DNA of 64,000 nucleotides, taken from positions 3,596,001 through 3,660,000 of the forward strand of contig NZ_CP108100.1 in assembly GCF_036195045.1 (NCBI RefSeq), in the 5' to 3' direction. Below, piece after piece: positions 1 to 17,960 of the stretch. This DNA is from Streptomyces sp. NBC_00236 (GTDB lineage: Bacteria; Actinomycetota; Actinomycetes; Streptomycetales; Streptomycetaceae). The notes beneath the pieces are model-generated. The model was not told the DNA's origin, ran no database searches, and saw only the letters and a list, made by a program, of their open reading frames with translations. How positions within the stretch are numbered: position 1 is the stretch's first letter; the number at the start of each line of letters is the position of its first letter. Both the position numbers and the translations under genes were made by a program.

Positions 1-270
1 CTCCGGGACGCCGTCCAGGCCGATCCGTCCGTCCCGCACGGTGATCCGGGCCAGTGGCTCGGCGCCGACCGCGGCGAAACGGCAGTCCTCGTCGGGGCCG
101 GCCAGGCTCTCGAAGAGGAACACCTGGTCCTCACCGAGCAGCCGGCGCAGCTCGGCGCCCAGGGCGAGCGGGGGGTGCGGCGGCAACGGGGTGCGCGCCA
201 CGGTCACCCGCAGGGGTTCGGCGACCGCCCCGGGTGGTGCTGCGGCGGGCTCGACGGCGGTCATGGTCAT
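1..270 (-). CDS. trpE: Anthranilate synthase component I-like protein (TrpE family), N-terminal part, cut by the window edge
   Basis: About 90 codons are visible, starting at an ATG at 270 (a second in-frame ATG is at 264), and the frame stays open to the left edge. After a Pro/Ala-rich lead the protein reads LLGEDQVFLFESLAGPDEDC followed by RFAAVGAEPLARI. This is the N-terminal pattern of chorismate-utilising anthranilate synthase subunits (xVFLxES....RxSxxG). The family makes anthranilate from chorismate and glutamine-derived ammonia. The chorismate-binding core and any fused glutaminase domain lie outside the window, so an isochorismate or aminodeoxychorismate synthase relative cannot be excluded. 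It follows trpDCBA and the sugar genes on the same strand after a 141-nt gap, so it may belong to the operon or have its own promoter. The start is uncertain because the ribosome-binding site (AAGAGA) is weak. Confidence 0.72.
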   Translation of the reverse strand, partial: MTMTAVEPAAAPPGAVAEPLRVTVARTPLPPHPPLALGAELRRLLGEDQVFLFESLAGPDEDCRFAAVGAEPLARITVRDGRIGLDGVPE

Positions 271-411
271 CGCGGGCGGTCTCTTTTCGGTACGGGGGTC
301 GGTCAGCGGCTCGATCCCAGCCAACCAACAGCGCGTACCTGCACGGCAGTCCACTGTTCCGGGCCGGCGGCGGACCACTTCACCGCGCTGCCCGGGAGAC
401 CCCCGGGGCCG

Positions 412-1077
412 CTACCGCACCGTTCCGCCCAGGAGTGCGGCAGCAGCCAGCAGGGCGTCCCGGCAGGAGTCCTCGTCGACGCCGGGGACCGAACAGGCCA
501 GCAGCAGCACCCGGCGGGTCTCCGCGGTCACCGCCTGGTGCACGCCGTCGCGGTGGGCGAACTGCGAGAGCACGCGCTTCTCGTCGGCGAGCACCAGACC
601 GCCCGCCTCCAGCGTCACCGGACCGTCCGCGCCGAGTGCGATGAACTCCTCGGTGCCGTCGGTCAGTCGGAGCGCGACCTCACCCTCCAGCATGTCCCGG
701 TCGAACAGGCCGAGCGCGACGAGGTCGCGTACCGCCACCGCGTTGACGGCGTCGACGGCCGGGTTGATCCTCGGCCAGGCGCCGAGCGGCTTGGCCCGCA
801 GCCCCCGGTCGATCAGCGCCTGCACGGAGGGCGGCCGCTTGTCGGGGTGGCTGCCGATCAGGCGGCTCAACTCCCGGTAGGCGGCGACGTTCGGGGCCGC
901 GCGCACCTCGGCCCGGCTCGCCCCGGTCCACTGCGCGTGCGCCTCGGCCCAGACGTCGTCGGCCGGTGCGGGGCCGGCGGCGGGGATCTGCGCCTCCAGG
1001 GTCAGCACCTGGACGCCGGGCACGAGTGCGCGGGCCTCGGGTGTCACGGCGACCTTGCGGAAGGTGGGGGTCGTCAT
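412..1077 (-). CDS. Free-standing B3/B4 tRNA-binding (PheRS editing-type) domain protein
   Basis: A 221-residue protein whose ATG overlaps the stop of the preceding oxidoreductase gene (ATGA), so it is probably translationally coupled. The fold-typical features are an N-terminal segment with a DDVWAEAHAQW helix, the central stretch RGLRAKPLGAWPRINPAVDAVN and a C-terminal segment ending in VLLLACSVPGVDEDSCRDAL. These match stand-alone B3/B4 proteins, which resemble the editing module of the phenylalanyl-tRNA synthetase beta subunit. In PheRS that module hydrolyses mischarged Tyr-tRNA(Phe). Free-standing members are common in bacteria but poorly characterised. In this operon it could edit tRNA mischarged with a non-canonical aromatic amino acid, or handle an aminoacyl or amino-sugar substrate. 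The family is recognised with fair confidence; the role is inference. Confidence 0.75.
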   Translation of the reverse strand: MTTPTFRKVAVTPEARALVPGVQVLTLEAQIPAAGPAPADDVWAEAHAQWTGASRAEVRAAPNVAAYRELSRLIGSHPDKRPPSVQALIDRGLRAKPLGAWPRINPAVDAVNAVAVRDLVALGLFDRDMLEGEVALRLTDGTEEFIALGADGPVTLEAGGLVLADEKRVLSQFAHRDGVHQAVTAETRRVLLLACSVPGVDEDSCRDALLAAAALLGGTVR

Positions 1078-2387
1078 CGGGTTCCTCCGGAGAAGGTGAA
1101 GGTGTCCAGCGTATGCAGGTTCAGGTCCTCGGCCGTGAGGACGCGTTCGGTGTCGATGAGGATGTTGTAGTGGTTCGGCGCGTGGCACTCGTCGAATCCG
1201 GCCACCCGTCCGATCGGCCCGTCCGGCCCCGACACCACGTCGCCCCGGTCGATGACCGTGCCGGAGGGGAACTCGGCGAAGCCCAGGAATCCCACGTGGT
1301 CGACGCGGTCCCCGGTGGCGGAGGGCCGGTCGGTGGTGGTGACCAGCTCGTGGACGTCGCCGGCCCGCACGCAGCGCGACTGCCAGGGCGACAGCCGCAT
1401 CCCGCGGTCCGTGCGCCGGTGGAACAGCAGCTTCACCAAGTGGGCCGAAACAGGCTCCTTGGCGGACATCCGCAGCCGCTGCTCCTTGGTCCGCCCGATG
1501 CCGTACGCCTCCTCGACGAGGTCGACGATGTGCGGACCCCGGTCCGGTCCGCTGCGTCCGTCGCGCACGACGCGGTGGAAGTCCGCCATGATGCCCGCGT
1601 ACTCGTGGTCGAGGGAGGACTTGAACGCCTCGAAGCCGTCCAGCATGTCGGCGTGCAGCTCCCGGCCGTCCTTGAGGTGCACGGTGATGTCCTTGCGCTC
1701 ACCGGTCTCCAGGGCCCAGTCCAGGTCCACCTGGACGGGTATGCCGCCGGCGGTGGCCAGGGTGAGTTCGGCGACGAACTCGACGCCGGACCTGACGTCC
1801 CCGATCGTGGCGTCGGTCAGCGTGAGGGGGCCGAGCACGGTCTCCAGGGCGTCCAGGGCGTTGGGGCCGTTGTCGATGATGCAACCGCCGCCGCAGCGGT
1901 CGAGGTCCTGGTACCAGCGGTCGGCGCCGGTGTGCTCCTCGATCTTCTCCTGGTAGCGGCTGGTGACGTGCGAGATGAGCTCGGGCTCCGGCAGCCGGTC
2001 CGCCAGGTCCTGGACATGGGTGTTGTAGCGGCGGTGGAAGGCGGTGAACAGGGTCGTGCCGTGCTCGTCGGCCAGCTGGATCAGCCGGTGGGCGTCCGCG
2101 GCGTGGACGGTCAGCGGCTTCTCGCAGCAGACGTGCACACCGGCCCGCAGGGCGTCGGCCACGACCGGGGCGTGCGCGTGGTTGGGCAGGGTGACCACGA
2201 CACCGTCCACCAGCCCGGAGGCGAGGAGGTCGCGGTGGTCCGTGAACATCACGGTCCCCGGCGGGAATCCGGTCAGCTTCGCCTGGTCGAGGTCGCAGAC
2301 GGCGGTCAGCCGCAGCTCCGGGTCGTCCTCGATGGCCTGAAGGAAGAAGGGCGCGATGACGCCCACTCCGATGACTCCGATACGCAT
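1074..2387 (-). CDS. Gfo/Idh/MocA-family NAD(P)-dependent oxidoreductase with an extra C-terminal domain
   Basis: A 437-residue protein. Residues 1-30 (MRIGVIGVGVIAPFFLQAI) form the Rossmann GxGxxA dinucleotide site, and EKP at 89-91 is the hallmark catalytic motif of Gfo/Idh/MocA sugar dehydrogenases. Residues to about 300 complete the usual catalytic domain. Residues about 307-437 form an additional region, rich in Asp and His and containing FDECHAPNHYNILIDTE, that I do not recognise. The usual family length is 330-390. Members oxidise a sugar or cyclitol hydroxyl to a ketone, for example WbpB at C3 of UDP-GlcNAc uronate or inositol dehydrogenases, which prepares a transamination. Two DegT aminotransferases lie in the same operon, which fits that chemistry. 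The stop overlaps the next start by 4 nt. Confidence 0.85.
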   Translation of the reverse strand: MRIGVIGVGVIAPFFLQAIEDDPELRLTAVCDLDQAKLTGFPPGTVMFTDHRDLLASGLVDGVVVTLPNHAHAPVVADALRAGVHVCCEKPLTVHAADAHRLIQLADEHGTTLFTAFHRRYNTHVQDLADRLPEPELISHVTSRYQEKIEEHTGADRWYQDLDRCGGGCIIDNGPNALDALETVLGPLTLTDATIGDVRSGVEFVAELTLATAGGIPVQVDLDWALETGERKDITVHLKDGRELHADMLDGFEAFKSSLDHEYAGIMADFHRVVRDGRSGPDRGPHIVDLVEEAYGIGRTKEQRLRMSAKEPVSAHLVKLLFHRRTDRGMRLSPWQSRCVRAGDVHELVTTTDRPSATGDRVDHVGFLGFAEFPSGTVIDRGDVVSGPDGPIGRVAGFDECHAPNHYNILIDTERVLTAEDLNLHTLDTFTFSGGTR

Positions 2388-2453
2388 GATGGTTCGGTCC
2401 TCTCCGTGTGCTGCGTGGATGGGTGTGCGGATGGGTGCGCGGCTCTGCCGTCG

Positions 2454-2514
2454 GGCGACCGGCCGGAGGCTGCGTGCGGCGCGCTTCAGGCGACCGGCTG
2501 GAGGCTGCGTGCGG
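2454..2514. repeat. Imperfect direct repeat (26 bp, period 35) duplicating the 3' end of the Ldh-family gene
   Basis: Copies at 2454-2479 and 2489-2514 differ at one position. The copy at 2489-2514 contains the last codons and stop of the dehydrogenase gene on the minus strand; the other lies just downstream in the 98-nt gap before the Gfo/Idh/MocA gene. It looks like a slippage or tandem-duplication product at a gene 3' end. Confidence 0.8.
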
Positions 2515-3601
2515 TCAGTGCCTCGGGCGCCCGGACCGTCAGCTGCTCGGCGAGCGCCGCCAGGCCCTCGGCCACCGGTCCCGGCAGCTCCACGCCCTCG
2601 CGCTGCGACTGCGCGTACCGCAGGGCCTCGGGGGCGCCCGGGTAGGTGACGCCCCGCGTCGCGTACGCGGCGGCCGGGGAGTTCGCGACCGTGTCGAGCA
2701 GGATCCGGTTCTCGGCGGCGATGGCGTGCGCGGAGCCGAACGCCGACGGGTCGATCACGATCGCGGTGTGGCCGACGTTGTCGTCGCCCGCCGGTTCGCC
2801 CTTCAGCACGCCGGGCCGGGGGCCGTACGCCGCGCCGGAGAGCGGGCCGCACAGCAGGTCCACCAGGAGGGCGAGCCCGAAGCCCTTGGCGCCACCGGTC
2901 GCGGCGGGCCCGCCGAGCCAGGCGACGTCGGCCTCCTCGGCCATGAAGTCGGCCGGGTCGGAGGTCGGGGTGCCGTCGTGGCGGACCAGCCACTCCTGCG
3001 GGACCTCCCGGCCCTCCCGGTGGGCGGCCTTGATCTTTCCGGTGGCGACCACGGTGGTGCTCATGTCGAGGACGAACGGCGCGCCCTCGGTCACCGGGAC
3101 GGCCGCGCTCAGCGGATTGGTGCCGAGCATCCGGACGGTGCCGCCGAGCGGCGGGGCGACGCCCTGGGCGCCGCAGTTCGTCATCGCCAGGCCGATCAGC
3201 CCGGCGGCGGCCGCCTTCTGCGTGTAGTAGCCGGCGCTGCCGAAGTGGGTGCTGTTGCGTACGGCGACCATGCCGATGCCGGTCTGCCGCGCCTTGGCCA
3301 TGGCGATGTCCATGGCCAGGTCCATGGTGACCAGGCCGAGCCCGCGGTCCCCGTCGAGCAGGGCGGCCCCGGCGGTCTCCTGCACGATGCGCGGTGCGGC
3401 GCCCGCGTCGATCCGGCCGTCGAGCAGGCGGGGGGCGTAGATGTTCACCAGCCCGTTGGTGCCGTGCGTGGTGAAACCGTTCGCGTCGGCGTACGTGATG
3501 ACGTCGGCGGCGGTACGTGCCGATTCGGCGTCCAGGCCGCACTCCGTGAGGACGTTGCGGACGAAGGCGGTGAGCTCGGCGAGGGGAACACGAACGGTCA
3601 T
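2486..3601 (-). CDS. Ldh_2 family (malate/L-lactate/ureidoglycolate-type) dehydrogenase
   Basis: A 371-residue NAD(P)-dependent oxidoreductase of the malate/L-lactate dehydrogenase superfamily, which is unrelated to classical LDH. Family marks are GFTTHGTNGL near the N-terminus (substrate-binding His), the NSTHFGSAGYYTQKAA block and GTNPLSAAVP with TEGAPFVLDMSTT further on. Length is normal. Relatives interconvert alpha-hydroxy and alpha-keto acids or reduce cyclic imines. The specific substrate is unknown; in this operon a 2-hydroxy/2-keto acid or a sugar-derived keto acid is plausible. The ATG at 3601 is preceded by GAGGAC at good spacing. The gap to the upstream M20 gene is 33 nt. Confidence 0.85.
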   Translation of the reverse strand: MTVRVPLAELTAFVRNVLTECGLDAESARTAADVITYADANGFTTHGTNGLVNIYAPRLLDGRIDAGAAPRIVQETAGAALLDGDRGLGLVTMDLAMDIAMAKARQTGIGMVAVRNSTHFGSAGYYTQKAAAAGLIGLAMTNCGAQGVAPPLGGTVRMLGTNPLSAAVPVTEGAPFVLDMSTTVVATGKIKAAHREGREVPQEWLVRHDGTPTSDPADFMAEEADVAWLGGPAATGGAKGFGLALLVDLLCGPLSGAAYGPRPGVLKGEPAGDDNVGHTAIVIDPSAFGSAHAIAAENRILLDTVANSPAAAYATRGVTYPGAPEALRYAQSQREGVELPGPVAEGLAALAEQLTVRAPEALTARSLQPVA

Positions 3602-3634
3602 GGCAAGTCCTCTGTCTTGTGGGTGAATTGGCTT

Positions 3635-4942
3635 TCAGGCGGTGTGCGCGGCGAACGCGTGCACCAGGTCCTTGATGCGCAGGGCGTACGTGTCCAGGTC
3701 GTCCAGGTGCACGAACTCGTCCGCGGTGTGCGCCCCGTTGGCGTCGAGGCGGCCGGGGCCGCAGGCGACGACATAGCGGCCGGGGCCCGGCGCCCAGATG
3801 GCGTCGCAGGTGAAGGCGGAGCCGTCGGCGAGGCCGTCGTGCCGGACGAACCCGGCCTCGTTCAGCAGGAGTTCGGCCTCGGGGTCACGGTTGTTCAGGG
3901 TGGGCAGACCCTGCTTCAGCCAGTCGAGGCGGACGATCCGGCGCCAGTCCTTCACCGTGCGGCGGCTGAACGGGTCATGGGCGTGCAGATGGGAGAACTC
4001 GGTACGGGCCTCCTCGATCAGCACTTCGAGGGAGGCCGCGAGCAGCTCGGCCTGCTCGGTCGCCGGGTAGGCGATGTTGAGGAGCAACTGCCCCGATCCG
4101 TACACCCGGTTGTGCGCGTTGCCGGTGTGCAGGCCGGAGACGCAGAGCTTGGCTCCCATGCCGTGGGCGAGCGGGCCGAGCCGGCGGGCGAGGAAGTCCG
4201 CGAGGAAGCCCAGCAGCACGGTGGCGTTGTGCCCGTCCGCGGGGTGGTCGTCGGTGGAGTCCTGGCCCGCCACCGTGATCCGCGGGGTCATCGCGGCGGT
4301 GCACCCGTCCATGAAGGTGTTGCCGGTCGGTTCGGCGAACACCATCAGGCGGCCGGTGTGGCCCGCGTCGATCAGCGCCCGCGTCCCGTACGTGCCCATC
4401 GCGCCGCCCTCCTCACCGGGCACGGACGCGATCTGCACCTCGATCCGGCCGTCGAGCCCCGGGTCCTCGGCGAAGGCGGCGGCGATCCCGGCCGCGGCGG
4501 CGACACCCGGGCCCTTGTCGTCGACGGCGCCCCGGCCGTGCAGGACCCGGCCCTCCAGGCGCGGCGGGACGTGCGGGCCGACCGTGTCCATGTGGAAGTT
4601 CACGACCAGCCGGCGCTCCTGCGGCTGCGGGGATCCGTACGCGACCACCACGGAGGGCTGTCCGTCCAGGAACCCGGACAGGTCCCGGCCGGCCACCTCC
4701 CGTACCGTGGCCGGCACTTCGGGCCGCTCCAGCAGTTCGGCCGCGGGCGGCCCGTGCAGTGCGGTGCGGAAGCCGCGCTCGGCGGCGCCGGCCAGGAACA
4801 CCCGCTGCGCGCGGGCCGCTCCGTCCAGGGGGCCGCCCTCCAGGGGCGAGACCGAGTCGACGGCCATCAGCTCGGTCAGCCACTGGAGGTCCGCGGCCGC
4901 GAGGCCGCCCTCGGTGCGGGTCGTGCGGGCCGTCTCAGCCAT
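3635..4942 (-). CDS. M20 family metallopeptidase/amidohydrolase (ArgE/DapE/carboxypeptidase G2 type)
   Basis: A 435-residue protein of the M20 zinc hydrolase family. Visible metal-site motifs are NFHMDTVGPH (His plus the following catalytic Asp), GRGAVDDKGPGVAAA (bridging Asp) and VPGEEGGAMGTYG (catalytic Glu-Glu). A lid/dimerisation domain follows, and a C-terminal GAHTADEFVHLDDL block supplies the last His. M20 enzymes hydrolyse amide bonds in N-acyl amino acids, dipeptides or N-acetylated amines. In this operon it could de-N-acylate an amino-sugar intermediate or release a masked product. There is no signal peptide, so it acts in the cytosol. The start overlaps the end of the isomerase gene by 8 nt, which suggests coupling. 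Confidence 0.87.
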   Translation of the reverse strand: MAETARTTRTEGGLAAADLQWLTELMAVDSVSPLEGGPLDGAARAQRVFLAGAAERGFRTALHGPPAAELLERPEVPATVREVAGRDLSGFLDGQPSVVVAYGSPQPQERRLVVNFHMDTVGPHVPPRLEGRVLHGRGAVDDKGPGVAAAAGIAAAFAEDPGLDGRIEVQIASVPGEEGGAMGTYGTRALIDAGHTGRLMVFAEPTGNTFMDGCTAAMTPRITVAGQDSTDDHPADGHNATVLLGFLADFLARRLGPLAHGMGAKLCVSGLHTGNAHNRVYGSGQLLLNIAYPATEQAELLAASLEVLIEEARTEFSHLHAHDPFSRRTVKDWRRIVRLDWLKQGLPTLNNRDPEAELLLNEAGFVRHDGLADGSAFTCDAIWAPGPGRYVVACGPGRLDANGAHTADEFVHLDDLDTYALRIKDLVHAFAAHTA

Positions 4943-5846
4943 GGTGGCTCTCCTCCCAGTACGTACGGCTGTCCGTGATGTCGATGCCGAGCAGCGCGGC
5001 GCAGCGCCGGGCGTACGTGCGGTAGCCGTCGGCGAGTGCGGCCGGATCGCCCGAAAGACCGAGGTGCGGGATGTGGGCGAGATGCGGCTCCAGGCTGTAG
5101 TAGCCGCGGTAGCCGTGCTCCTCCAGCAGCCGCACGCACGCGGCGACGTGGGCCGTGCCCTCGCCGGGCATCGTGAACTCGGCCTGTCCGCCGGAGCGGA
5201 TCCCGTCCTTGATGTGCACGTGCTCCACCCACGGCAGCACCCGGCGCAGGAAGTCGAGGGAGTCGTAGCCGTAGGCGAGCCCGTTGCCCGTGTCGAACAG
5301 CAGCCGCAGGCGAGGGCTCGCGACCTCCTCCAGCATGTGCACGGTGTGCGCGGCGCTCTGCCCGGCCCAGCCCTGGCAGTTCTCGTGCAGCAGGGTCACA
5401 CCGAGGCGCTCGGCCTCCCGGGCCAGCGTCCGCATCCGGCGCAGCGACTCGGTCCGCCACTCGCGCTCCGGCCGGCCGTCGTTGGGGTACGACATGACGC
5501 GCAGCCGGTCGCAGCCGAGCAGCGCCGCCGCCTTCGCGGAGCGCTCCAGCGCCGCGAGCTCTCCGTCCATTCCGGTGGCGACGGTGGTGGACCAGGAGCC
5601 CACCGGGGTGTCCACGACCGGCACCCGCAGGCCCGCGACGATGGTGCGCCGGGCCAGGTCGGCGGCGTCGCCGGCGGGCAGCTCGTGCAGTCCGAGGCCG
5701 TCGACGGTACGCAACTCGATGGCGTCCATGCCCAGTTCGTGGTGGATGGCCAGCTGGCCTGCCAGATCGGGGGCGGCCTCGTCCCCGATGCCGCACAGCC
5801 GGTCCGCGGTGATGCCCAGGAGGTTCGGCACAGACACCGCGCTCAC
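4935..5846 (-). CDS. Sugar phosphate isomerase/epimerase, xylose isomerase-like TIM barrel
   Basis: A 303-residue protein resembling the AP-endonuclease-2 / xylose-isomerase-like barrel family (IolE, IolI, hydroxypyruvate isomerase). Typical elements are HENCQGWAG near mid-protein (metal-binding Glu and Asn), LLFDTGNGLAYGYDSLDFLRR, VEHVHIKDG (metal His and Asp) and GYYSLEPH near the end. Such enzymes isomerise or epimerise sugars and inososes, or dehydrate inososes, through a divalent metal. Together with the Gfo/Idh/MocA enzyme and two DegT aminotransferases this resembles aminocyclitol or amino-sugar assembly. The first GTG (5846) overlaps the previous stop (GTGA) but directly abuts the GGGGAG ribosome-binding site, so the in-frame GTG at 5837 may be the true start. 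Confidence 0.82.
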   Translation of the reverse strand: MSAVSVPNLLGITADRLCGIGDEAAPDLAGQLAIHHELGMDAIELRTVDGLGLHELPAGDAADLARRTIVAGLRVPVVDTPVGSWSTTVATGMDGELAALERSAKAAALLGCDRLRVMSYPNDGRPEREWRTESLRRMRTLAREAERLGVTLLHENCQGWAGQSAAHTVHMLEEVASPRLRLLFDTGNGLAYGYDSLDFLRRVLPWVEHVHIKDGIRSGGQAEFTMPGEGTAHVAACVRLLEEHGYRGYYSLEPHLAHIPHLGLSGDPAALADGYRTYARRCAALLGIDITDSRTYWEESHHG

Positions 5847-6967
5847 CTCCCCGCTGCGTAGAAGCGGCTGACGGCGGCCACGACCTGCTCGGCAGCCCCC
5901 GGCGCCATGTCCGGGTGCAGGGGCAGTGCGAGCGCCTCACGGGAGAGCTGCTCGGCCACGGGGAAGTCACCGGGCCCGTACCCGAGGTGGGCGAAGGCGG
6001 GCTGGAGGTGGAGGGGGCGCGGGTAGTAGACGGCCGTCTCGATGCCCTGGCCGGCCAGATGGGCGCGGAGTTCCTCGCGCTGCTGGGCGCGCACCACGTA
6101 GGTGTAGACGGAGCGGCCCTCGAACCCGGCCGGCGGGGGAAGCAGCGCCGGTCCGAGCGGGCGCAGGCCCTCCTCGTACACGGCGGCGATCTCGCGGCGC
6201 CTGGCCAGGAGCCGGTCCAGGTGCGGGAGTTTGCGCAGCAGGAAGCCGGCGCTCAGCTCGTCCATCCGGCAGTTGAAGCCGAGGAGCTCGTGGTAGAAGC
6301 GCTTGCCGGCGGGCTGGCCGTGGTTGCGCAGCATCCGGGCGGTACGGGCCAGGTCGTCGTCGTCCGTGACGATCATCCCGGCGTCGCCGATGCCGCCCGC
6401 GGGCTTCGCCGGGAAGAAGGAGTAGACCCCGGCGTGCCCGTGCCGGCCGGCGGGCTTGCCGTCCACCTCGGCGCCCAGCGCGATCGCGCTGTCCTCGACC
6501 AGGTGCAGCGAGTGCCGGGCGGCGATCTCCGCGAAGGCGCCCATCTTCGGGGAGCCGCTGAACAGATAGGCCGGCAGGAGCGCCCGGGTGCGGTCGGTGA
6601 CGGCGGCCTCGGCGGCGGCCGGGTCGAGCAGGCCCGTCTCGTACTCGACGTCGGCGAAGACGGGGCGGGCTCCGCGCAGGGCGACGGTGGAGGCGGTGGA
6701 GACGAACGAGAACGCGGGGGTGACGACCTCGTCCCCGTCGCCGAGGCCGAGCGCGGCCAGGACCACGGTCAGTGCTCCGGTGCCGCTCGCCACGGCGACG
6801 GCGTGCGCCGCCCCGGTGCGTGCGGCGATCTCCGCCTCCAGCCGCTCGACCCGGGACTTCAGGATGAACTCGTCGCTCTCGGCGACCTCCTGGAAGACCT
6901 CCACGAGGTCGTCGGCCCAGTCGGCCGAGCGGGCGGGCCAGTCGAAGTACGGGATGACGGTGGTCAC
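5843..6967 (-). CDS. DegT/DnrJ/EryC1/StrS family sugar aminotransferase (first of two)
   Basis: A 374-residue PLP-dependent aminotransferase. SGTGALTVVLAALGLGDGDE binds the PLP phosphate, LVEDSAIALGAE holds the Asp that contacts the pyridine nitrogen, and FFPAKPAGGIGDAGMI carries the Schiff-base Lys at about residue 188. Length is normal for the family, which transfers an amino group from Glu or Gln to keto sugars or keto cyclitols. The next gene upstream is a second member, clearly diverged, which implies two different amination steps or two substrates. The start overlaps the neighbouring stop by 4 nt. Substrate unknown; UDP-3-keto uronates (WbpE-like) or inososes (StsC-like) are options. 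Confidence 0.9.
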   Translation of the reverse strand: MTTVIPYFDWPARSADWADDLVEVFQEVAESDEFILKSRVERLEAEIAARTGAAHAVAVASGTGALTVVLAALGLGDGDEVVTPAFSFVSTASTVALRGARPVFADVEYETGLLDPAAAEAAVTDRTRALLPAYLFSGSPKMGAFAEIAARHSLHLVEDSAIALGAEVDGKPAGRHGHAGVYSFFPAKPAGGIGDAGMIVTDDDDLARTARMLRNHGQPAGKRFYHELLGFNCRMDELSAGFLLRKLPHLDRLLARRREIAAVYEEGLRPLGPALLPPPAGFEGRSVYTYVVRAQQREELRAHLAGQGIETAVYYPRPLHLQPAFAHLGYGPGDFPVAEQLSREALALPLHPDMAPGAAEQVVAAVSRFYAAGR

Positions 6968-8124
6968 GATGCGGCTCCGTAGAAGGCGTGGACGAGGGCG
7001 GCGACGCGGTCGGCCTGCTCATCGGTGAGGTCGGGGTAGAGGGGCAGCGCCAGGGCGCGCCGCGCGGACGCTTCGGACACCGGGACGGGGTGGCGGGAGC
7101 CGGGCAGCGGGGCGAGCAGCGGCTGCTGGGTGAGCGGGCGCGGGTAGTACGCCTCGGTCCCGACCCCGTGGGCCTCCAGGTACGCGGCCAGCTCGTCGCG
7201 GCGGTCGCACTCGATCAGGTACACGTAATAGACCTGGTTGCTCGGCGTCTTGGCGGGCGCCATCCACGGCGTCGTCACGGTCCCGGCGAGCGGGGCGAGC
7301 AGCCGGTCGTAGCGGGCGGCCAGTTCGGCTCGCCGCCCGATCTCCTCGCCGAGGCGCTCCAGGCGGTGCAGCAGGAACGCCGACTGCAGTTCGTCGCAGC
7401 GGCTGTTGTAGCCGATCTCCTGGTAGACGTACGCACCGTCGGTGTCGTACGCGCCGTCCGTGCCCTGGCCGTGCAGGCGCAGCCGCCGGGCGGACGCGGC
7501 GATGTCGTCGTCGTCCGTGAGGAGCATGCCGGCGTCGCCGAGCGAGCCGAGGGTCTTGGTGGGGAAGAAGGAGAGCACCCCGCCGCTGCCCCACAGGCCG
7601 GCGTGCACCCCGCCCGCCCGCATGTCGATGCCCTCGGCACTGTCCTCCAGCAGGAGCAGCCCGTGCCGGTCGGCCAGGTCCTTCAGCGCCTCCATGTCGG
7701 CCATCTGCGAGAACAGGTGCACCGGCATGATCGCCTTGGTGCGCTCGGTGATCGCGGCCTCGGCGCGCTCCGGGTCCATCGCGTAGCTGCCGGGCAGCAC
7801 GTCCACGAGCACCGGCTCGGCGCCCACGTGCAGGACGCACGACGCGCTGGCGAAGAAGGTGTACGCGGGGACGATGACCTCGTCGCCGGGGCCGATGCCC
7901 GCCGCCCGGAGGAGGATCACGAGGGCGTCGGTCCCGTTGGCGACGGCCACCGCGTGCCGGGCGCCGGTGCGCGCGGCGATCGCGGCCTCCAGTTCGGCGG
8001 TGACCGGGCCCGAGGTGAACCGGCCGGAGGCGGCGACCTGGCGGACCATGGCCTCCAGTCGGTCCCGGTCCCGGCGGGCGGAGGCGGCCCCGCTGAAGAA
8101 CGGGATGGCGGTGGCGTCACTCAT
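6964..8124 (-). CDS. DegT/DnrJ/EryC1/StrS family sugar aminotransferase (second of two)
   Basis: A 386-residue PLP enzyme. ANGTDALVILLRAAGIGPGD forms the phosphate cup, LLEDSAEGI holds the pyridine-contacting Asp and SFFPTKTLGSLGDAGM carries the PLP Lys at about residue 190. The xxxFFPxKxLGxxGDAG form is typical of aminotransferases acting on nucleotide-linked keto sugars (WbpE, QdtB, FdtB). I chose the ATG at 8124 because it overlaps the trpA stop by 4 nt and starts right at the conserved IPFFSGAAS region; a longer reading frame upstream only shadows trpA. It probably works in sequence with the neighbouring aminotransferase. Confidence 0.9.
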   Translation of the reverse strand: MSDATAIPFFSGAASARRDRDRLEAMVRQVAASGRFTSGPVTAELEAAIAARTGARHAVAVANGTDALVILLRAAGIGPGDEVIVPAYTFFASASCVLHVGAEPVLVDVLPGSYAMDPERAEAAITERTKAIMPVHLFSQMADMEALKDLADRHGLLLLEDSAEGIDMRAGGVHAGLWGSGGVLSFFPTKTLGSLGDAGMLLTDDDDIAASARRLRLHGQGTDGAYDTDGAYVYQEIGYNSRCDELQSAFLLHRLERLGEEIGRRAELAARYDRLLAPLAGTVTTPWMAPAKTPSNQVYYVYLIECDRRDELAAYLEAHGVGTEAYYPRPLTQQPLLAPLPGSRHPVPVSEASARRALALPLYPDLTDEQADRVAALVHAFYGAAS

Positions 8125-8914
8125 CGCGTGGCCGCCTTGAGGGAGGAGATCAGCCCCGTGACGGCCTGGCGGCGGCCCGCCGCGTCCCGGGCGGCGCCGA
8201 TGGCCTGGAGCAGCGCGCTGCCCACGATCACGCCGTCCGTCTTGCCGTGCAGCGACGCCACGTGCTCGGGGCGGGAGATGCCGAAGCCGACGGCCATCGG
8301 GGTGTCGCCGGCCGCGCGGACCCGCTCCAGGTAGGCGTCGAGGCCCGGGTCCAGGTCCTTGCGGACTCCGGTGACGCCGTTGGCGGCCAGCACGTACAGG
8401 AAGCCGCGGGAGGCGGCGGCGGAGGCCGCGATGCGCTCGGCCGAGCTGCCGGGTGCGGTGAAGAACGTCTGGCCCAGCTCGTTGGCCTCGGCGTGCGCCA
8501 GCCACTCGGCGCCCTCGCTGACCGGCAGGTCGGGGACGACGAACCCGTCGACGCCGGCCGACCTGGCGTCGTCGTACAGCTGGGTGAGGCCGTAGCGCAG
8601 GAACGGGTTGCAGTAGCCCATCAGCACGATCGGCGCCTCGACGCCTGCGGCACGCGCCTCGGCGACGACGTCGAGGGTGGCGGCGGCGGTGGTGCCGGTG
8701 TCCAGGGCGGCCTGGCCGGTGGCCTGGATGACCGGTCCGTCACCCAGCGGGTCGGAGAACGGGACACCGAGCTCGATCACATCGGCGCCGGCCTCCACCG
8801 CGGCGGAGATCAGGCCGACGGTCTCGCCGAGCAGCGGGTAGCCGGAGGTGATGTAGGCGACGAGGGTGGTCTCGTCCTTGGTCCGGTTGTCGGTGAAGGT
8901 CTGTTCGATGCGCT

Positions 8915-8918
<4 letters not shown>
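8121..8918 (-). CDS. trpA: Tryptophan synthase alpha chain
   Basis: A 265-residue TIM barrel that cleaves indole-3-glycerol phosphate to indole and glyceraldehyde-3-phosphate and channels indole to the beta subunit. The catalytic Glu and Asp are both present in [18 protein letters not shown] (E49 and D60). The phosphate-binding GVTGVRKDL and VGFGIS loops are also there. The overlap with trpB is 4 nt, so the alpha and beta chains are probably made in equal amounts. Nothing suggests loss of function. Its place among sugar-modifying genes suggests it serves a pathway other than bulk tryptophan supply. Confidence 0.95.
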
Positions 8919-10098
<1,180 letters not shown>

Positions 10099-10102
<4 letters not shown>

Positions 10103-10896
10103 GAGGCCACCTCCAGAATCTGGACCCCGGTGTAGGACCGCAGCTGGGCGGCGGGGTCGGGGCTGCTGAGCAGGGACTCGCCGATGAGCGCGGCGTCGAA
10201 GCCGTGCGCGGCGATGCGTTCGATGTCGGGGCGGCCCGACAGGCCGCTCTCGCTGACGGTCAGCACGCCGCGCGGGATGTCGCGGCGCAGCCTGGCCGAG
10301 TTGTCCAGGTCGACCGAGAAGGTCTGCAGGTCCCGGTTGTTGATGCCGACGATGCGGGCGCCGGCGGTCAGGGCCCGGTCCACCTCGTCCTGGGTGAAGG
10401 TCTCCACCAGCGCGTCGAGGCCGAGGCCGTGCGCGGTGCGCACCAGGTCGGTCAGCAGCGCGTCGTCGACGGCGCGGGCGATGATCAGGATGCCGTCGGC
10501 GCCGCTGTCGTGGGCGAGCGTCACCTGGCGGACGTCGACCAGGAAGTCCTTGAACATGACGGGGACGGTGACGTCCGGGTGCTCCGCGACCGTGCGGACC
10601 AGCTCGGGCGAGCCGCCGAAGTAGGGCGAGTCGGCGAGCACGGAGATGGCCGAGGCGCCTCCCTCGATGTAACTGCGGGCGGTGGGGACGGCCAGCGCGG
10701 GGTCGAGCAGCCGGCCCTTGGACGGGGACGCGGGCTTGATCTCGGCGATGACCGAGATGTCGGGGCCGCCGAGCGCGGCGGCGAACCGGCCGGGTACGGC
10801 GGGTGTCCTGCGGCCGCGGGCTGCGGCGTCGGCTGCCGCCGGGCCGCTCCAGGCGGCACGTTTGGCGGCGACGATGTCGTCGAGGTGCGTGGCCAT
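10099..10896 (-). CDS. trpC: Indole-3-glycerol phosphate synthase
   Basis: A 265-residue TIM barrel that closes the indole ring from carboxyphenylamino-deoxyribulose phosphate with loss of CO2 and water. [10 protein letters not shown] (catalytic Lys and substrate loop), [11 protein letters not shown] (second catalytic Lys), [11 protein letters not shown] region (written [11 protein letters not shown] here) and VSESGLSGR are all intact. No TrpF (phosphoribosylanthranilate isomerase) is encoded in the window. Streptomyces use the bifunctional HisA/PriA for that step, so the gap does not break the pathway. It overlaps trpB by 4 nt and trpD by 1 nt. Confidence 0.95.
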
Positions 10897-11999
10897 CAGG
10901 TGGTCTCCGGGGTAGTGATCGGGGTGGTCTGCGGGGCCCGGGCGGTCCTCGGGGCCGGGGCGGCCTTCGTCGTCCGGCTGCGGGCGAGCCGGCCGGTCAG
11001 GGCGGCCGGGGCTCCCTGCTCCACGGCGCTGCGCGCCAGGGCGACGCCGGACGCCAGGTCCGGGGCGTGACCGGACAGTTGGAGCACGGCCGCCGCGTTC
11101 AGCAGGACGGTGTCCAGCAACGGTGCGGGGGCCGTCCCGTCGAGGACCTGGCGGGCGAGGACCGCGTTGCGTGCCGCGTCACCGCCCGCCAGTTCGGCCC
11201 GTCCGGCCGCTCGCAGCGGCAGCCCGGCCGGGTCGACGGTGAACTCGGTGAGCTCGCCGCCGTCCACCTGGAGCACCCGTGCGGGGCCCGCGGTGGTCAG
11301 TTCGTCCATCCCGTCGAAGCCCTGGATGACCCAGGTCCGCCGGTAGCCGAGCCGCAGGGCGGCCTGCGCCAGCACCTCCTGGTCCTGCCGGGTCGCCGTG
11401 CCGATGAGCCGGCCGGTCAGCGGGACCGGGTTGGCGAGCGGGCCGGACAGGTTGAACAGGGTGCGGAAGCCGAGCCGGCGGCGGACCGGGGCCAGTCTCC
11501 GCAGCGCCGGATGGAGCGCGGGTGCGAAGAGGAACGCGAACCGGTGCTCGGCCAGCAGCTCCGTGAGGCGCTCCCCGGGGTCGAGGTCGATCCCGAGGGC
11601 CTCCAGCAGGTCGGCGCTCCCGCACTGCGAAGTCGCCGCCCGGTTACCGGCCTTGGCCACGGTCGCCCCGGCCGAGGCGGCGACCAGACCGGCGAGCGTG
11701 GAGATGTTGACCGAGCCGCTGCCGTCACCGCCGGTGCCGACCACATCGACCGCCGGGCCCGTCCAGGCGACCCGCCTGGCCACCGCCAGCACCGCCTCCA
11801 CCGCTGCCGCCACCAGGACCGGGCTCGCCCCGCCCACCGCGACCGCGGTCAGGAAGGCAGCGGCGTCCACCTCGTCCGTGGCCTCGTCCAGCAGCTCCGC
11901 CACCGCCGCCCGGGCCGCCTCGGCCGACACCGTACGACCCGCGACCGCGTCCCGGGTGACGGTGGGGAGCGCACGGCCGGCGAGCAGGGTGGCCGCCAT
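10896..11999 (-). CDS. trpD: Anthranilate phosphoribosyltransferase
   Basis: A 367-residue enzyme that joins anthranilate to PRPP. The signature motifs are [17 protein letters not shown] (PRPP pyrophosphate loop) and [21 protein letters not shown] (anthranilate and Mg sites). The canonical bacterial second motif reads K-H-G-N-R; here it is K-A-G-N-R, so His is replaced by Ala next to the anthranilate site. That change could reflect a modified substrate or simple drift. I chose the ATG at 11999 because it overlaps the dehydrogenase stop by 1 nt (TGATG type); upstream sequence in frame is a shadow of the dehydrogenase gene. A Thr/Pro/Ala-rich tail of about 35 residues ends the protein. Confidence 0.93.
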
Positions 12000-13339
12000 C
12001 AGAGCACCGCCACATTGCTGGCCGCCGTGAGCTTGTTGTGGGTGTCGAGCACGACCGGCGGGATGCCCCACAGCAGGTCCTGCTCCAGGCCGGGCACCGG
12101 GGTGACCATCACCGCCGCGTCCAGCTGCGCCAGCTCCACCACCGCCCAGTCGGCCGACGTGACCGGCTCCCCGTCGACGACGAGCCCCGGCACCAGCGGG
12201 TCGTGGTACGAGACGACGGCCCCGGCGGCCCGCAGGCCCCGGATGACGTCCAGGGCGGGCGCGTTGCGCAGATCGGCGACGCCGGACTTGTAACTGACCC
12301 CGACCACCAGCACCTTGGCGCCCCTCAGGGAGGAGCCGCGCGCCTCGACGAGCTCGGCGAGCCGCTCCACGACCTGCCAGGGCCGCTGCTCCACGCGCTC
12401 GAACGCGGCGGCCACCAGGTCCATTCCGGTGCCGGCCCGGTGCGCGGCCTCCCGCAGGAACAGCGGATCGACCGGGATGCACTCGCCGCCGACGCCCGGC
12501 CCCGGGTAGTGCGGGAGGAAGCCGTAGGGCTTGGTGGCCGCGGCGTCGATCACCTCGCGGACCGGTATGTCCAACGCCCGGCACAGGTCGGACAGTTCGA
12601 GCGTGAGGCTGATGTTGACCAGCCGGAAGGTGTTCTCGAAGACCTTGGAGAGTTCGGCGACCTCGGTCCGGGACACCGGGACGACCGTCTCGCAGACCAG
12701 CCCGAACAGGGCCGCCGCGCGGCGGGTGCACTCCTCGGTGAGGCCGCCCACTACCTTCGGGGTGTTCGACAGGTTCCAGCCGCTCGTGTTGGCGGGGTCG
12801 ACCCGCTCCGGGGCCATCGCCACGTGGAAGTCGGTGCCCGGCTCCAGGCCGGTGGCGCGGGCCAGGGCGGCCGCCGCGGTGGCGGTGGTGCCCGGCGGGA
12901 CCGTGGACTGCAGGATCAGCAGCGTCCCGCGGCGCAGCAGCGGCGCCACCGAGTCCATCGCGGCCCCCACGTAGTCCAGGTTGGCCTGCTGGTCACCGGT
13001 GACCGGGGTGGGGACGCAGACGATCAGGACGTCGGATCCGGCGAGCTCGCCGGACTCGGTGGTCGCCTTCAACCGCTCGCCGACCGCGGCCAGTTCGGAG
13101 TCGCTCACGTCCGGAAGGTAGGAACTGCCGCGGGCCACCCGGCCGACGCGCTCGGCGTCGGTGTCCATCCCGAGGACCCGGAGGCCGGCCGCGGCGAAGC
13201 CGAGACCGAGCGGCAGACCGGTGTATCCGAGGCCGACGATTCCCACCCGCAGGGTGCGGCGTTCGATCTTCTCGTCGAAGACGCTTGCGCCGTCCCGCCC
13301 ATGGATCACGGGAGCGAGTACGCCAGTCATTTCAGCCAT
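11999..13339 (-). CDS. Nucleotide-sugar dehydrogenase (UDP-GlcNAc/UDP-ManNAc 6-dehydrogenase type), first gene of the operon
   Basis: A 446-residue UDP-sugar C6 dehydrogenase. VGIVGLGYTGLPLGLGFAAA (from about residue 32) is the NAD-binding GxGYxGLP motif, APERVDP is the central helix motif, and GPGVGGECIPVDPLF holds the catalytic Cys at about 287. The GGxCIPVDP form groups it with WecC/WbpA-type enzymes, which make UDP-HexNAc uronates, rather than with UDP-glucose dehydrogenases. GGE replaces the usual GGH. With the Gfo/Idh/MocA enzyme and a DegT aminotransferase it recalls the WbpA-WbpB-WbpE route to 3-aminouronates (inference). The ATG at 13339 has GGGAG 6 nt upstream and lies just downstream of a good promoter. 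Confidence 0.9.
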   Translation of the reverse strand: MAEMTGVLAPVIHGRDGASVFDEKIERRTLRVGIVGLGYTGLPLGLGFAAAGLRVLGMDTDAERVGRVARGSSYLPDVSDSELAAVGERLKATTESGELAGSDVLIVCVPTPVTGDQQANLDYVGAAMDSVAPLLRRGTLLILQSTVPPGTTATAAAALARATGLEPGTDFHVAMAPERVDPANTSGWNLSNTPKVVGGLTEECTRRAAALFGLVCETVVPVSRTEVAELSKVFENTFRLVNISLTLELSDLCRALDIPVREVIDAAATKPYGFLPHYPGPGVGGECIPVDPLFLREAAHRAGTGMDLVAAAFERVEQRPWQVVERLAELVEARGSSLRGAKVLVVGVSYKSGVADLRNAPALDVIRGLRAAGAVVSYHDPLVPGLVVDGEPVTSADWAVVELAQLDAAVMVTPVPGLEQDLLWGIPPVVLDTHNKLTAASNVAVL

Positions 13340-13358
13340 GGGGTTCTCCCTCTGAGTG

Positions 13359-13387
13359 CTATAAATAAAGGCCGTTGGCGTGATCAA
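13359..13387 (-). promoter_or_regulatory. Predicted operon promoter (-35 TTGATC, 17-bp spacer, -10 TTATAG)
   Basis: On the minus strand TTGATC (13382-13387) is followed by 17 bp and TTATAG (13359-13364), a good sigma-70/HrdB-type promoter. It sits about 19 nt upstream of the dehydrogenase ATG, which gives a very short leader containing the GAGGGAG ribosome-binding site. The flanking AT-rich stretch (TATAAATAAA) stands out in this GC-rich DNA. It is the only obvious promoter for the 12-gene run. Confidence 0.6.
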
Positions 13388-13406
13388 GTAGGCCAGTGGG
13401 CGAGGG

Positions 13407-13422
13407 AGACCACCCAGACCAC
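13407..13422. promoter_or_regulatory. Candidate operator: direct repeat AGACCAC, 9-bp period
   Basis: AGACCAC occurs at 13407-13413 and again at 13416-13422 in the divergent intergenic region between the dehydrogenase and MocR genes. MocR-type regulators often bind short direct repeats next to their own gene, so this is a reasonable binding candidate. The repeat is short and could be chance. Confidence 0.3.
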
Positions 13423-13446
13423 TGCGGGGGAGACGGAGCAGACCAG

Positions 13447-14847
13447 ATGGCCTGGCATCTGTCGGTGCAAGTGGACCGGGACTCGGCGGTGCCACTCACC
13501 GCACAGCTCCAGAACGCCATCAAGACCAGGGTCGAGGACCGGGTTCTGCACCCCGGCGCACGCCTGCCGTCGAGCCGTCAACTCGCCCTGGACCTGGGGC
13601 TTTCGCGCAGTGTGGTGGTCGAGGCGTACGAGCAGCTGATCGCCGAGGGCTACCTGGACGCGGTCCGCGGATCGGGCACCCATGTCGCGCGGAAGATGCC
13701 CGACAGCGTCGGCGACACCTCCCTGCTGGACTCCCGTCCGGCGACGAGCGCGCGCTGGGATCTGCGGGTCGGCATAGCGAACCTGTCGAACTTCCCGCGC
13801 CAGGAGTGGCTCAACTCCTATACGAAGGTCCTGCAGAACGTCGGCCGCGAAGGCATGGACTACCCCCCGGTCGCCGGCATCGCCGAACTGCGCAACGAAC
13901 TCTCCGGCTATCTGGGCCGGGTGCGCTCGGTCCACACCGAGCCCGGGCAGGTGATGGTCACCGCGGGATTCGCCCAGGGCCTGGCCCTGCTCTCCGACTC
14001 CCTCCAGCGCCTCGGCATCCATGAACTGGCCATCGAGGAGCCGGGACACAGCGGCCAGCGCCGCTTCATCCTGGACACCGGGCTGACACCCCTGCCGGTC
14101 CCCGTCGACGAGGAGGGCCTGATCGTCGAGGCCCTGGAGCGCTCGGGCGCCCGCGCGGTCCTGGTCACCCCCGCGCACCAGTTCCCGACCGGGGTCATGA
14201 TGTCGCCGGAGCGCCGCGAACAGCTCCTGGCCTGGGCGCGGGCCCGGGACGGCTGGATCATCGAGGACGACTACGACGGCGAGTTCTGGTTCGACCGCGG
14301 GGTCAGGCCCACCGCACTGCAGGAGGGCGACCCGGAGCGGGTGGTCTACGCGGGCACCACGAGCAAGGTCCTGGTCCCCGGTCTGCGGCTGGGCTGGCTG
14401 GCGATACCCCCGAAGCTGTACCCGCTGATGGAGCGGGTCCGCTCCCGCCAGGACCAGGGCTCCGACACCCTCACCCAGCTGGCCTTCGCCGAGCTGATGC
14501 GCAGCGGCCTGCTGGACCGGCACCTGCGCCGGGTCCGCTCCCGCTACCGCTCCCGCCGCGAGGCGCTGGCCGCGGCCGTCCACGAGTCCCTGCCCGAGGC
14601 CCGCATCATCGGCTGCGCGGCCGGCCTGCACAGCTACGCCGTACTGCCCCCGGGCACCGACGAGGCGGCCGTGGTGCACGGCGCCCTGCGCCGCTCGGTC
14701 CTGGTCCGCAGCGGCGCGGCGTTCCGCTTCGGCGGGCCGCCCGGCGAGCCGGGCCTGCTCCTGGGATACGGCTCACTGCCCCTCACCGGCATCTCCGAGG
14801 CCGTGGCGGCCATCGGCGCGTCGTACGAGGAGGCCCGCCGCGGCTGA
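13447..14847 (+). CDS. MocR family transcriptional regulator (GntR HTH fused to an aminotransferase-like domain)
   Basis: A 466-residue protein. Residues about 10-80 are a GntR winged helix (PLTAQLQNAIK, LPSSRQLALDLGLSRSVVVEAYEQL, GYLDAVRGSGTHV). Residues about 105-460 are a fold-type I aminotransferase-like domain with EDDYDGEFWFD and the PLP Lys in YAGTTSKVLVPGLRLGW (about K307), so PLP binding is probably retained. MocR proteins sense PLP adducts or amino compounds and usually regulate the adjacent divergent operon. Here that operon encodes four PLP enzymes or amino-sugar steps, which makes it the likely pathway regulator. The ATG at 13447 is preferred over an upstream in-frame ATG because GGAG lies 8 nt before it. 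Confidence 0.92.
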   Translation: MAWHLSVQVDRDSAVPLTAQLQNAIKTRVEDRVLHPGARLPSSRQLALDLGLSRSVVVEAYEQLIAEGYLDAVRGSGTHVARKMPDSVGDTSLLDSRPATSARWDLRVGIANLSNFPRQEWLNSYTKVLQNVGREGMDYPPVAGIAELRNELSGYLGRVRSVHTEPGQVMVTAGFAQGLALLSDSLQRLGIHELAIEEPGHSGQRRFILDTGLTPLPVPVDEEGLIVEALERSGARAVLVTPAHQFPTGVMMSPERREQLLAWARARDGWIIEDDYDGEFWFDRGVRPTALQEGDPERVVYAGTTSKVLVPGLRLGWLAIPPKLYPLMERVRSRQDQGSDTLTQLAFAELMRSGLLDRHLRRVRSRYRSRREALAAAVHESLPEARIIGCAAGLHSYAVLPPGTDEAAVVHGALRRSVLVRSGAAFRFGGPPGEPGLLLGYGSLPLTGISEAVAAIGASYEEARRG

Positions 14848-14948: not shown

Positions 14949-15632
14949 TCAGCGCATCGAGCGGCCCCGGGGTGCCGCGATCAGCTTCTGGGCCAGCGCC
15001 TTGTTCACCGCGTCGATGCGCGACACCGCGTCCAGCTTGTCGAAGATGTTGCGCAGGTGACGCTTGACGGTGCCTTCGGTGATGCCGAGCCTGGCCGCGA
15101 TCTGCCGGTTGCTCATGGCCTCCGCGACGCACGTCAGCACCTCGCGCTCGCGCGGCGACACCGGCCCGGCCTCCTGGTCGTGCGCCTGGTCGCCACCCGC
15201 CGTGTAGCCCGAGCGCGGCACCAGGATGGTGATCTGGTCGTCGTCCCGCGCGGCGTTGCGGACCGCGCTCAGCAGCGCCGCCCGGGAGACGCTCTTGTGC
15301 AGATAGCCCCGGGCGCCCAGCTGCAGCAGCTCATGGACGAGCGGCTGGTCGTCGTACATGGTGAGGATGATGATCCGCAGGCTGGGGAATCGTTCCAGCA
15401 GCCCGCGCACGGCCGCCCGGGGGTGGTGGTCCGGCATCTCGACGTCGAGCAGCAGCACATGCGGCTGGTGCCGCTCCACCAGCTCGACCAGCCCCCGCCC
15501 ACTGCTCGCCTGGGCGACGACCTGCAAGTCGTCCTCAGCGTTGAGCAGTTCGGCCAGCGCCGTGCGCAGCAGCGTGTGGTCGTCGGCCGCCAGGATGCGG
15601 ATCAGTTCAGGTCGCGCGTTCAACGGAATCAC
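14949..15632 (-). CDS. NarL/LuxR-type response regulator
   Basis: A 227-residue two-component regulator. The receiver domain (about 10-130) has the acidic pair in ILAADDHTLL, the phospho-acceptor Asp in LLLDVEMPDHH, the conserved Thr in IILTMYDD and the Lys in GYLHKSVS. The C-terminal LuxR helix-turn-helix is VSPREREVLTCVAEAMSNR followed by QIAARLGITEGTVKRHLRNIF. It overlaps the upstream kinase gene by 26 nt, so the two are one transcript and very probably a cognate pair. The GTG start at 15632 is the first in frame. Its targets are unknown; adjacent biosynthetic accessory genes are candidates. Confidence 0.92.
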   Translation of the reverse strand: MIPLNARPELIRILAADDHTLLRTALAELLNAEDDLQVVAQASSGRGLVELVERHQPHVLLLDVEMPDHHPRAAVRGLLERFPSLRIIILTMYDDQPLVHELLQLGARGYLHKSVSRAALLSAVRNAARDDDQITILVPRSGYTAGGDQAHDQEAGPVSPREREVLTCVAEAMSNRQIAARLGITEGTVKRHLRNIFDKLDAVSRIDAVNKALAQKLIAAPRGRSMR

Positions 15633-17541: not shown

Positions 17542-17670
17542 GATGGCTTCCCGGGGTCGGAAACGGACCAGGGCTGCCAACGGCCCATAACGGGAAGCGG
17601 GGTGCCGGAAACGACGGCGCCCGCCTGCTCACCAGCGAAGCGCGGGCGGGAGACGGGCGGGGGGTCCACT

Positions 17671-17910: not shown

Positions 17911-17960
17911 CTCATTTGCAGAACAGTCAGGTACCCCTGCCCGTGCCTAGGCTCCTGGGC

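Follow-up and report, generated by a model that had tools for sequence, protein, structure and literature searches.

Passages of two papers (PMC5036795, PMC7042404) place a set of trp genes, trpC2D2GE2, inside the CDA (calcium-dependent antibiotic) cluster of Streptomyces coelicolor, whose product contains Trp. The operon of Streptomyces sp. NBC_00236 described here resembles that arrangement in holding paralogous trp genes within what looks like one metabolite cluster. It lies in a stretch of 64,000 nucleotides, positions 3596001 to 3660000 of a single 8.33 Mb contig, which we call the window. CDA is a lipopeptide made by a non-ribosomal peptide synthetase (NRPS), with trpC, D, G and E in its cluster, whereas in NBC_00236 trpA and trpB are duplicated as well, an aminosugar module is interleaved with the trp genes, and no NRPS was recognised. 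What might such a gene set make? On balance, we favour the view that the operon forms the core of a cluster for a secondary metabolite, which would be a small peptide of tryptophan (or a close analogue) and a non-standard amino acid derived from a nucleotide amino sugar. The proposal draws on a second trpE-(trpG-like)-trpD-C-B-A set, an eight-enzyme sugar module, two adjacent ATP-grasp proteins, an exporter and a MocR-type regulator.

Twelve genes form one run on the minus strand at 412-13339. Nine of the 11 junctions are overlaps (1, 1, 4, 4, 4, 4, 4, 8 and 4 nt) and at the remaining two the genes stand 33 and 98 nt apart, much as the first-pass annotation of this DNA had described the run (one strand, mostly overlaps of 1-8 nt). 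Searches of Pfam and NCBIfam, from which the labels below are taken, agree with the families that the annotation named; it had left the twelfth gene, B3/4 (PF03483), unnamed. Nearly all of the motifs sought in the enzymes are present. From the first operon gene to the last, with the neighbouring trpE at the end, the features are as follows.

11999..13339, minus strand: UGD, nucleotide-sugar 6-dehydrogenase, first operon gene (TIGR03026, 343 bits; motif GPGVGGECIPVD)
10896..11999, minus strand: trpD paralogue, anthranilate phosphoribosyltransferase (TIGR01245, 290 bits, over cut-off; KAGNR replaces KHGNR)
10099..10896, minus strand: trpC, indole-3-glycerol phosphate synthase (NF001377, 238 bits, under the model cut-off of 260; motifs)
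8915..10102, minus strand: trpB, tryptophan synthase beta (TIGR00263, 558 bits; in a clade of its own)
8121..8918, minus strand: trpA, tryptophan synthase alpha (TIGR00262, 230 bits; alignment)
6964..8124, minus strand: DegT1, pyridoxal phosphate (PLP) aminotransferase, nearest WbpE (PF01041; WbpE 248 bits; searched as a longer version with its start at 8130)
5843..6967, minus strand: DegT2, PLP aminotransferase (PF01041; PDB matches given below)
4935..5846, minus strand: xylose-isomerase-like TIM barrel, an epimerase, isomerase or dehydratase (PF01261, 109 bits)
3635..4942, minus strand: M20 family amidohydrolase/deacylase (PF01546; motifs)
2486..3601, minus strand: Ldh_2 family NAD(P)-dependent oxidoreductase (PF02615, 345 bits)
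1074..2387, minus strand: Gfo/Idh/MocA oxidoreductase (Gfo) with a fused C-terminal DUF6917 (PF01408, PF22725, PF21891)
412..1077, minus strand: stand-alone B3/4-domain protein, a domain of the phenylalanyl-tRNA synthetase (PheRS) beta subunit (PF03483, 67 bits; weak pheT match)
1..270, minus strand: N-terminus of a trpE paralogue, the whole gene lying at genome 3594774-3596270 with a trpG-like gene (labelled by eye) behind it

The trpE start lies 141 nt beyond the last operon gene. Its 90-residue piece inside the window gives no family match of its own in Pfam or NCBIfam; the first-pass annotation had called it a TrpE start, and the whole trpE was read in the flank. The same annotation placed the operon behind one good promoter, and this claim fared less well: a sigma-70 promoter scan of 13200-13600 gave no match, and by eye there is only a site with 8/12 matches, TTGATC-18 nt-TATAGC, in the 107-nt gap shared by the operon and a divergent MocR gene.

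A second trp set elsewhere in the genome, for which the first-pass annotation had proposed to look, is present: by trpB, trpA and trpD, the genes that the test covered, the operon carries the second copies. Another trpB at 1873117 is 57% identical to that of the operon and has a trpA (40%) in the same 20 kb; a further trpD (37%) lies at 2000384. Because these copies exist, we rejected an ordinary housekeeping trp operon.

Is the arrangement conserved? When named genomes were scanned with the Gfo protein, 29 loci came up. The trp-bearing operon is present at 13 of these: in eight close Streptomyces (L009-L015, L023) and in Streptomyces NBC_00083 (L016), in three Micromonospora (L017-L019), and in Flexivirga (L020). 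The remaining 16 are L021, L022, L024 and 13 distant Gfo proteins. Twelve of the 13 trp-bearing relatives share the order UGD-trpDCBA-DegT-DegT-TIM-M20-Ldh2-Gfo; the exception is Micromonospora andamanensis, which is without trpD. L024 (Streptomyces sp. HPF1205, 9763-10896), with TIM, Gfo and B3/4 fragments only and no trp match, is apparently a decayed copy of the cluster. The minimal set, of about 19 genes, is that of Micromonospora CP22, which reads third ligase-Gfo2-ATPg1-ATPg2-MFS-MocR-UGD-trpDCBA-DegT1-DegT2-TIM-M20-Ldh2-Gfo/DUF6917-B3/4-DMT exporter and is bordered, by eye, by pentose-phosphate-like genes on one side and by secG, tpiA and gapA on the other. A closely related Gfo (at least 69%) occurs in five of 392 Streptomyces genomes, the window's own counted, a scattered occurrence. 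Genes in the fetched regions were called with a simple GC-frame script, so that small genes may be missed and some starts are wrong; where calls fell on the wrong strand over true homologues, tblastn matches were relied on. To judge from gene content and order, the cluster is real, conserved and undescribed-looking, and common to several genera of soil bacteria. The first-pass annotation knew of no described cluster with this set, and we likewise found no description of the combination in the open-access literature.

The trp genes themselves point to a lineage of their own. Each of the 13 trp-bearing genomes searched with TrpB has one or more trpB genes besides that of the cluster, and 13 cluster TrpB proteins form one clade (support 100/99) apart from 16 others; G002 was left out of this tree, and the 16 include one protein from Longimycelium, whose cluster has no trp set, and a long row, L146, that may be misplaced according to a program warning. 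In all 13 aligned cluster TrpD proteins (the window's and those of 12 relatives) the motif KHGNR has become K[A/T/V]GNR. The histidine, which presumably lines the anthranilate site, is kept in the genome's other TrpD and in the three solved relatives shown. A trpF (PF00697) lies within the cluster of Streptomyces NBC_00083. Adjoining the Flexivirga cluster (L064:7925-12611) are further trpD-like (31%), trpA-like (31%) and trpC-like (32%) genes with no trpB match, beside what by eye are an AMP-ligase, an acyl carrier protein (ACP), an acyl-CoA dehydrogenase and a distant ketosynthase; this set is possibly an indole-making assembly-line cluster.

What would join the two halves? As in bacilysin and other L-amino-acid ligase systems (BacD, BL00235, DdaF), an ATP-grasp ligase with an L-amino-acid-ligase (LAL) domain adjoins genes for what would be a non-standard amino acid. 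This protein, ATPg1, is encoded outside the window, left of the operon, and matches PF13535 (ATP-grasp) and PF18603 (the C-terminal domain LAL_C2), both over cut-off. All 13 trp-bearing relatives have a homologue (46-98% identity, E 1.3e-81 or better) at most about 7 kb from the fetched operon locus. Gfo2, ATPg1, ATPg2 and an MFS exporter are grouped in every one of the ten relatives whose flank was read, and the Micromonospora clusters have an additional, third ligase, again with PF13535 and PF18603 over cut-off. The differences from bacilysin-type systems are that the precursors here would come from a nucleotide-sugar module and the tryptophan pathway, and that among the PDB matches of ATPg1 the one to BacD is weak (45 bits, against 103 bits for the ligase BL00235). 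Since the ligases to the left of the window are of the ATP-grasp L-amino-acid type, a small peptide seems a likelier product than a glycoside.

The sugar module, as we define it, comprises UGD, Gfo2, the two DegT proteins, TIM, M20, Ldh2 and Gfo/DUF6917. The nearest solved relative of UGD is 4r16 (labelled UDP-ManNAcA dehydrogenase, 205 bits); its motif GGxCIPVD we take to be of the hexosamine type, and it does not reach equivalog cut-offs. DegT1 has WbpE as its best PDB match (248 bits). This motif and this match make it plausible that a nucleotide sugar is oxidised at C6 and aminated at C3. DegT2 matches 7b0d (labelled scyllo-inositol transaminase) at 265 bits, QdtB at 245, and 2oga and WbpE at 240 each. 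The operon Gfo matches 3q2k, which we take to be WlbA; Gfo2, outside the window, gives weak matches only and may do the first oxidation. The locus resembles the WbpA/WbpB/WbpE (WlbA/WlbE) aminouronate pathway in its putative hexosamine-type 6-dehydrogenase, a Gfo and a DegT nearest WbpE, and differs from it in the extra DegT, the extra Gfo, and the TIM, M20 and Ldh_2 proteins; by eye, with no family search made, no acetyltransferase or glycosyltransferase partners were recognised in the minimal clusters. The WbpA-WbpB-WbpE-like series of steps in the first-pass annotation is plausible for UGD and DegT1 and less secure for DegT2, which prefers the scyllo-inositol transaminase entry, and for the first oxidation, if that falls to the second Gfo.

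In aminoglycoside pathways, GenD2 and KanD2 oxidise the sugar C3'' for a DegT partner. The AlphaFold2 model of Gfo/DUF6917 (pLDDT 95.3) is similar to these enzymes: in the fold search of the Gfo model GenD2 (rank 1) and L-arabinose 1-dehydrogenase are nearest and KanD2 stands at rank 14, and the 50 matches shown for the full protein are all Gfo-type enzymes. Compared with GenD2/GenS2 and KanD2/KanS2, identity is about 22-23% and a DUF6917 is fused here. Folded alone from 13 sequences, DUF6917 gave a poor model (mean pLDDT 63). It has invariant His, Glu, His and His (HE...H...H; residues 346-347, 402 and 406 of the Gfo/DUF6917 protein) across 45 sequences, as would be expected of a metal site. 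The DUF6917 part appears as a separate second match just downstream of Gfo in 28 of 33 loci. Across 296 Actinomycetota genomes, a search for the family turned up no member besides the window's own protein (of the 21 genomes listed for that search, nine are Streptomyces), and the name DUF6917 occurs in no paper of the open-access literature searched.

The sugar genes also occur apart from the trp genes. At E 1e-60 or better, Gfo has matches in 46 of 392 Streptomyces genomes, eight of the 46 at full length, and in ten of 394 genomes of a class-wide sample; from these 54 genomes (two are shared) we hand-picked 11 regions, L109-L119, in which there is no trp or B3/4 match at 1e-6. Together with L021 and L022 they make 13 other regions, every one of which carries the sugar module, whole or partial, without this trp set. 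L021 (Longimycelium) has all eight module genes; L111 is without UGD and both DegT genes, L112 and L117 are without UGD, L114, L115 and L119 are without Ldh_2, and L022 (Actinokineospora) and L116 have TIM-M20-Gfo only. The second DegT in three of L109-L119 was taken from the gene reading of the regions. L115 has two ATP-grasp proteins (34-35%) and no trp genes. Because 13 other regions have it, whole or in part, and lack this trp set, the sugar half looks like a separable module; the first-pass annotation had treated the trp and sugar genes as a single set.

By eye, DXS stands beside the module in L109, L111 and L118, IspH and a polyprenyl synthase in L111 and L118, and a UbiA-like gene in L109 and L112; the module may feed isoprenoid conjugates in L109, L111 and L118 (three of the 11 regions read). 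In L111:11613-13955, DUF6917-like and DXS-like parts share one open frame. EF-hand-like proteins, again by eye, adjoin the DegT genes of two trp-less modules (L112:3761-4375 and L117:11171-11782).

We propose the following route for the trp-bearing clusters. UGD would oxidise C6 of a UDP-N-acetylhexosamine (UDP-HexNAc), and C3 and a second position would be oxidised and aminated by Gfo/DegT pairs. M20 would take off an acyl group, after which the TIM barrel, Ldh_2 and Gfo/DUF6917 would reshape the chain into an amino acid. The trp genes would provide the partner, the ATP-grasp enzymes would make the amide bond or bonds, and the peptide would be exported. In the Streptomyces clade to which the window belongs, an acyl part may be added by a linked type II polyketide synthase (PKS) together with accessory genes. 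The idea of the first-pass annotation, an amino-sugar conjugate with a tryptophan, indole or anthranilate partner, is on the whole partly supported: the constant position of the trp genes across 13 relatives makes Trp a plausible partner, and the joining is better explained by ATP-grasp ligation than by a glycoside.

That annotation had also supposed that a PKS, NRPS or glycosyltransferase might be found to the left of the window. A type II PKS is indeed there, among genes for MFS, AfsA-domain, HAD, ketoreductase (KR), SnoaL, ACP, ketosynthase (KS)-alpha, KS-beta and FAD proteins. KS-alpha is nearest 6kxd (356 bits), presumably the ishigamide ketosynthase, and as in that system KS-beta, ACP and KR lie alongside; unlike that system, the partners here include AfsA, SnoaL and carotenoid-isomerase-like proteins, and the genes lie outside the minimal cluster. 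KS-alpha is linked to the operon in eight of 14 genomes (G000-G006, G015), with the polyketide block on the opposite side of the operon in G006 and G015. G007-G012 have no linked KS-alpha match at E 1e-120, and in G007 and Flexivirga only a distant KS (35%) lies nearby. On the right of the operon, the window holds the following genes.

13447..14847, plus strand: divergent MocR-type regulator, GntR plus aminotransferase fold (PF00392, PF00155; kept beside the operon in relatives)
14949..15632, minus strand: response regulator (by eye; kept in five Streptomyces relatives)
15607..16728, minus strand: histidine kinase (by eye; kept in five Streptomyces relatives)
16771..17580, minus strand: possible Sfp-type phosphopantetheinyl transferase (motif by eye only, no Pfam match; position conserved)
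17898..18902, plus strand: UbiA-family prenyltransferase (PF01040, 90 bits; position conserved)
19007..20128, plus strand: FabD-like malonyl transacylase (TIGR00128, 244 bits, under the cut-off of 261; position conserved)

On this side five Streptomyces relatives were read, and all have the genes from MocR to FabD-like (window 13447-20128). The polyketide block of G006 and G015 lies between the UbiA and FabD-like genes, and G015 has about 9 kb between MocR and the response regulator. Because of this recurrence and the placement of the block, the cluster's right end in the window's Streptomyces clade is probably near 20128, and in this clade the polyketide genes may belong to the cluster. Farther along, at window 56001-62000, G+C is 56-58%, whereas elsewhere in the window it is about 68-75%; the drop suggests a foreign insert.

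The B3/4 protein, which by its weak pheT match is related to the editing region of PheRS beta, is present in 13 of the 14 trp-bearing clusters, the window's included (Flexivirga, with no match, is the exception), and in none of the 13 regions that lack the trp set (L021, L022, L109-L119); we would guess at a protective role. A search of seven genomes for trpS, the tryptophanyl-tRNA synthetase gene, found one in Micromonospora CP22, two full copies in each of five genomes, and one full copy with two fragments in NBC_00083. As none of these copies lies in the cluster, trpS duplication as self-resistance has no support. A far more speculative and, we think, improbable picture is that a tryptophanyl (or substituted) sugar-amino-acid peptide mimics an aminoacyl-adenylate or misleads a tRNA synthetase, with a TrpD of opened anthranilate pocket leading to a non-natural tryptophan, B3/4 protecting the producer by clearing mischarged tRNA, and the sugar-amino-acid module, shared with isoprenoid-linked clusters, serving as a general undescribed building block.

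Several observations weigh against the tryptophan-containing peptide that we favour. Tryptophan as a component is suggested by gene content alone; the change from H to A, T or V in the cluster TrpD may mean a substrate other than plain anthranilate; and a trpE match is absent from the Micromonospora, Flexivirga and NBC_00083 regions read. No sugar enzyme reaches an NCBIfam equivalog cut-off, and no nucleotide-cleaving enzyme was recognised. All eight module genes are present, within the stretch read, in just five of the 13 trp-less regions (L021, L109, L110, L113, L118), and a distant TrpB-like gene (32%) stands at the edge of L021. ATPg2 gives only marginal ATP-grasp matches and no LAL domain, and the polyketide genes are unlinked or absent in six of the 14 genomes.

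This last point bears on whether one cluster or two are at hand. A type II polyketide/butyrolactone cluster might simply adjoin an unrelated trp-aminosugar cluster, each with its own product, an explanation to which we give a little less than an even chance and with which a peptide product of the trp-aminosugar cluster would be compatible. The genomes without a linked KS-alpha (G007-G012), together with the AfsA-domain protein and HAD phosphatase of the polyketide block, speak for such a split, and what speaks against it is linkage in the other eight genomes, where the side of the operon on which the block stands differs between species, and the accessory genes that flank the operon on both sides in the window strain. 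A different kind of doubt concerns the trp genes. The product might attack the biosynthesis or use of tryptophan, with the trpD-C-B-A copies as resistant targets or a growth-restoring supply; the downstream enzymes travel with the cluster where no trpE match was found, a conserved TrpD position is changed, and B3/4 accompanies the trp-bearing form. One insensitive enzyme is normally enough, however, so that several would not be needed, a ligase of the L-amino-acid type requires amino-acid substrates, and Micromonospora CP22 has no second tryptophanyl-tRNA synthetase; we therefore consider resistance unlikely. That the operon is an ordinary chromosomal trp operon with acquired sugar genes and no special metabolite, as the nearly complete motifs of its trp proteins might suggest, seems to us very improbable in view of the other trp copies, the separate TrpB clade and the scattered occurrence among Streptomyces.

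Two further alternatives concern the sugar. A hexosamine-type dehydrogenase and a WbpE-like aminotransferase would also suit a nucleotide-activated aminouronate that is transferred as a glycoside, to a polysaccharide or a glycosylated indole. Among the called genes of the minimal clusters, however, no glycosyltransferase was recognised by eye, with no family search made, and M20, Ldh_2 and the TIM barrel would better suit the turnover of a free sugar acid; such a glycoside seems to us a shade less likely even than the resistance role. Lower again we place an aminocyclitol route, with inositol-type oxidation by Gfo, amination by DegT and the TIM barrel as an inosose isomerase or dehydratase. 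What keeps this doubtful route among the rivals is the scyllo-inositol transaminase label on the best PDB match of DegT2, the missed equivalog cut-offs, and the best NCBIfam matches of Gfo (inositol 2-dehydrogenase, 68 bits) and the TIM barrel (inosose dehydratase, 37 bits). Both of these matches are weak, far under cut-off, and DegT1 is nearest WbpE; moreover, a nucleotide-sugar dehydrogenase would have no place in such a route.

If the operon does make a peptide of tryptophan and a sugar-derived amino acid, it would represent a cross-genus family of clusters in which a separable module for that amino acid is paired with tryptophan via ATP-grasp ligases and elsewhere possibly with isoprenoids. 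DUF6917, a family of unknown function, would be placed in that module, and the operon would plainly illustrate how an amino-acid pathway can be duplicated, almost in full, for the sake of a single metabolite. The small Micromonospora version of about 19 genes, lying between housekeeping-like genes, makes the product directly testable.

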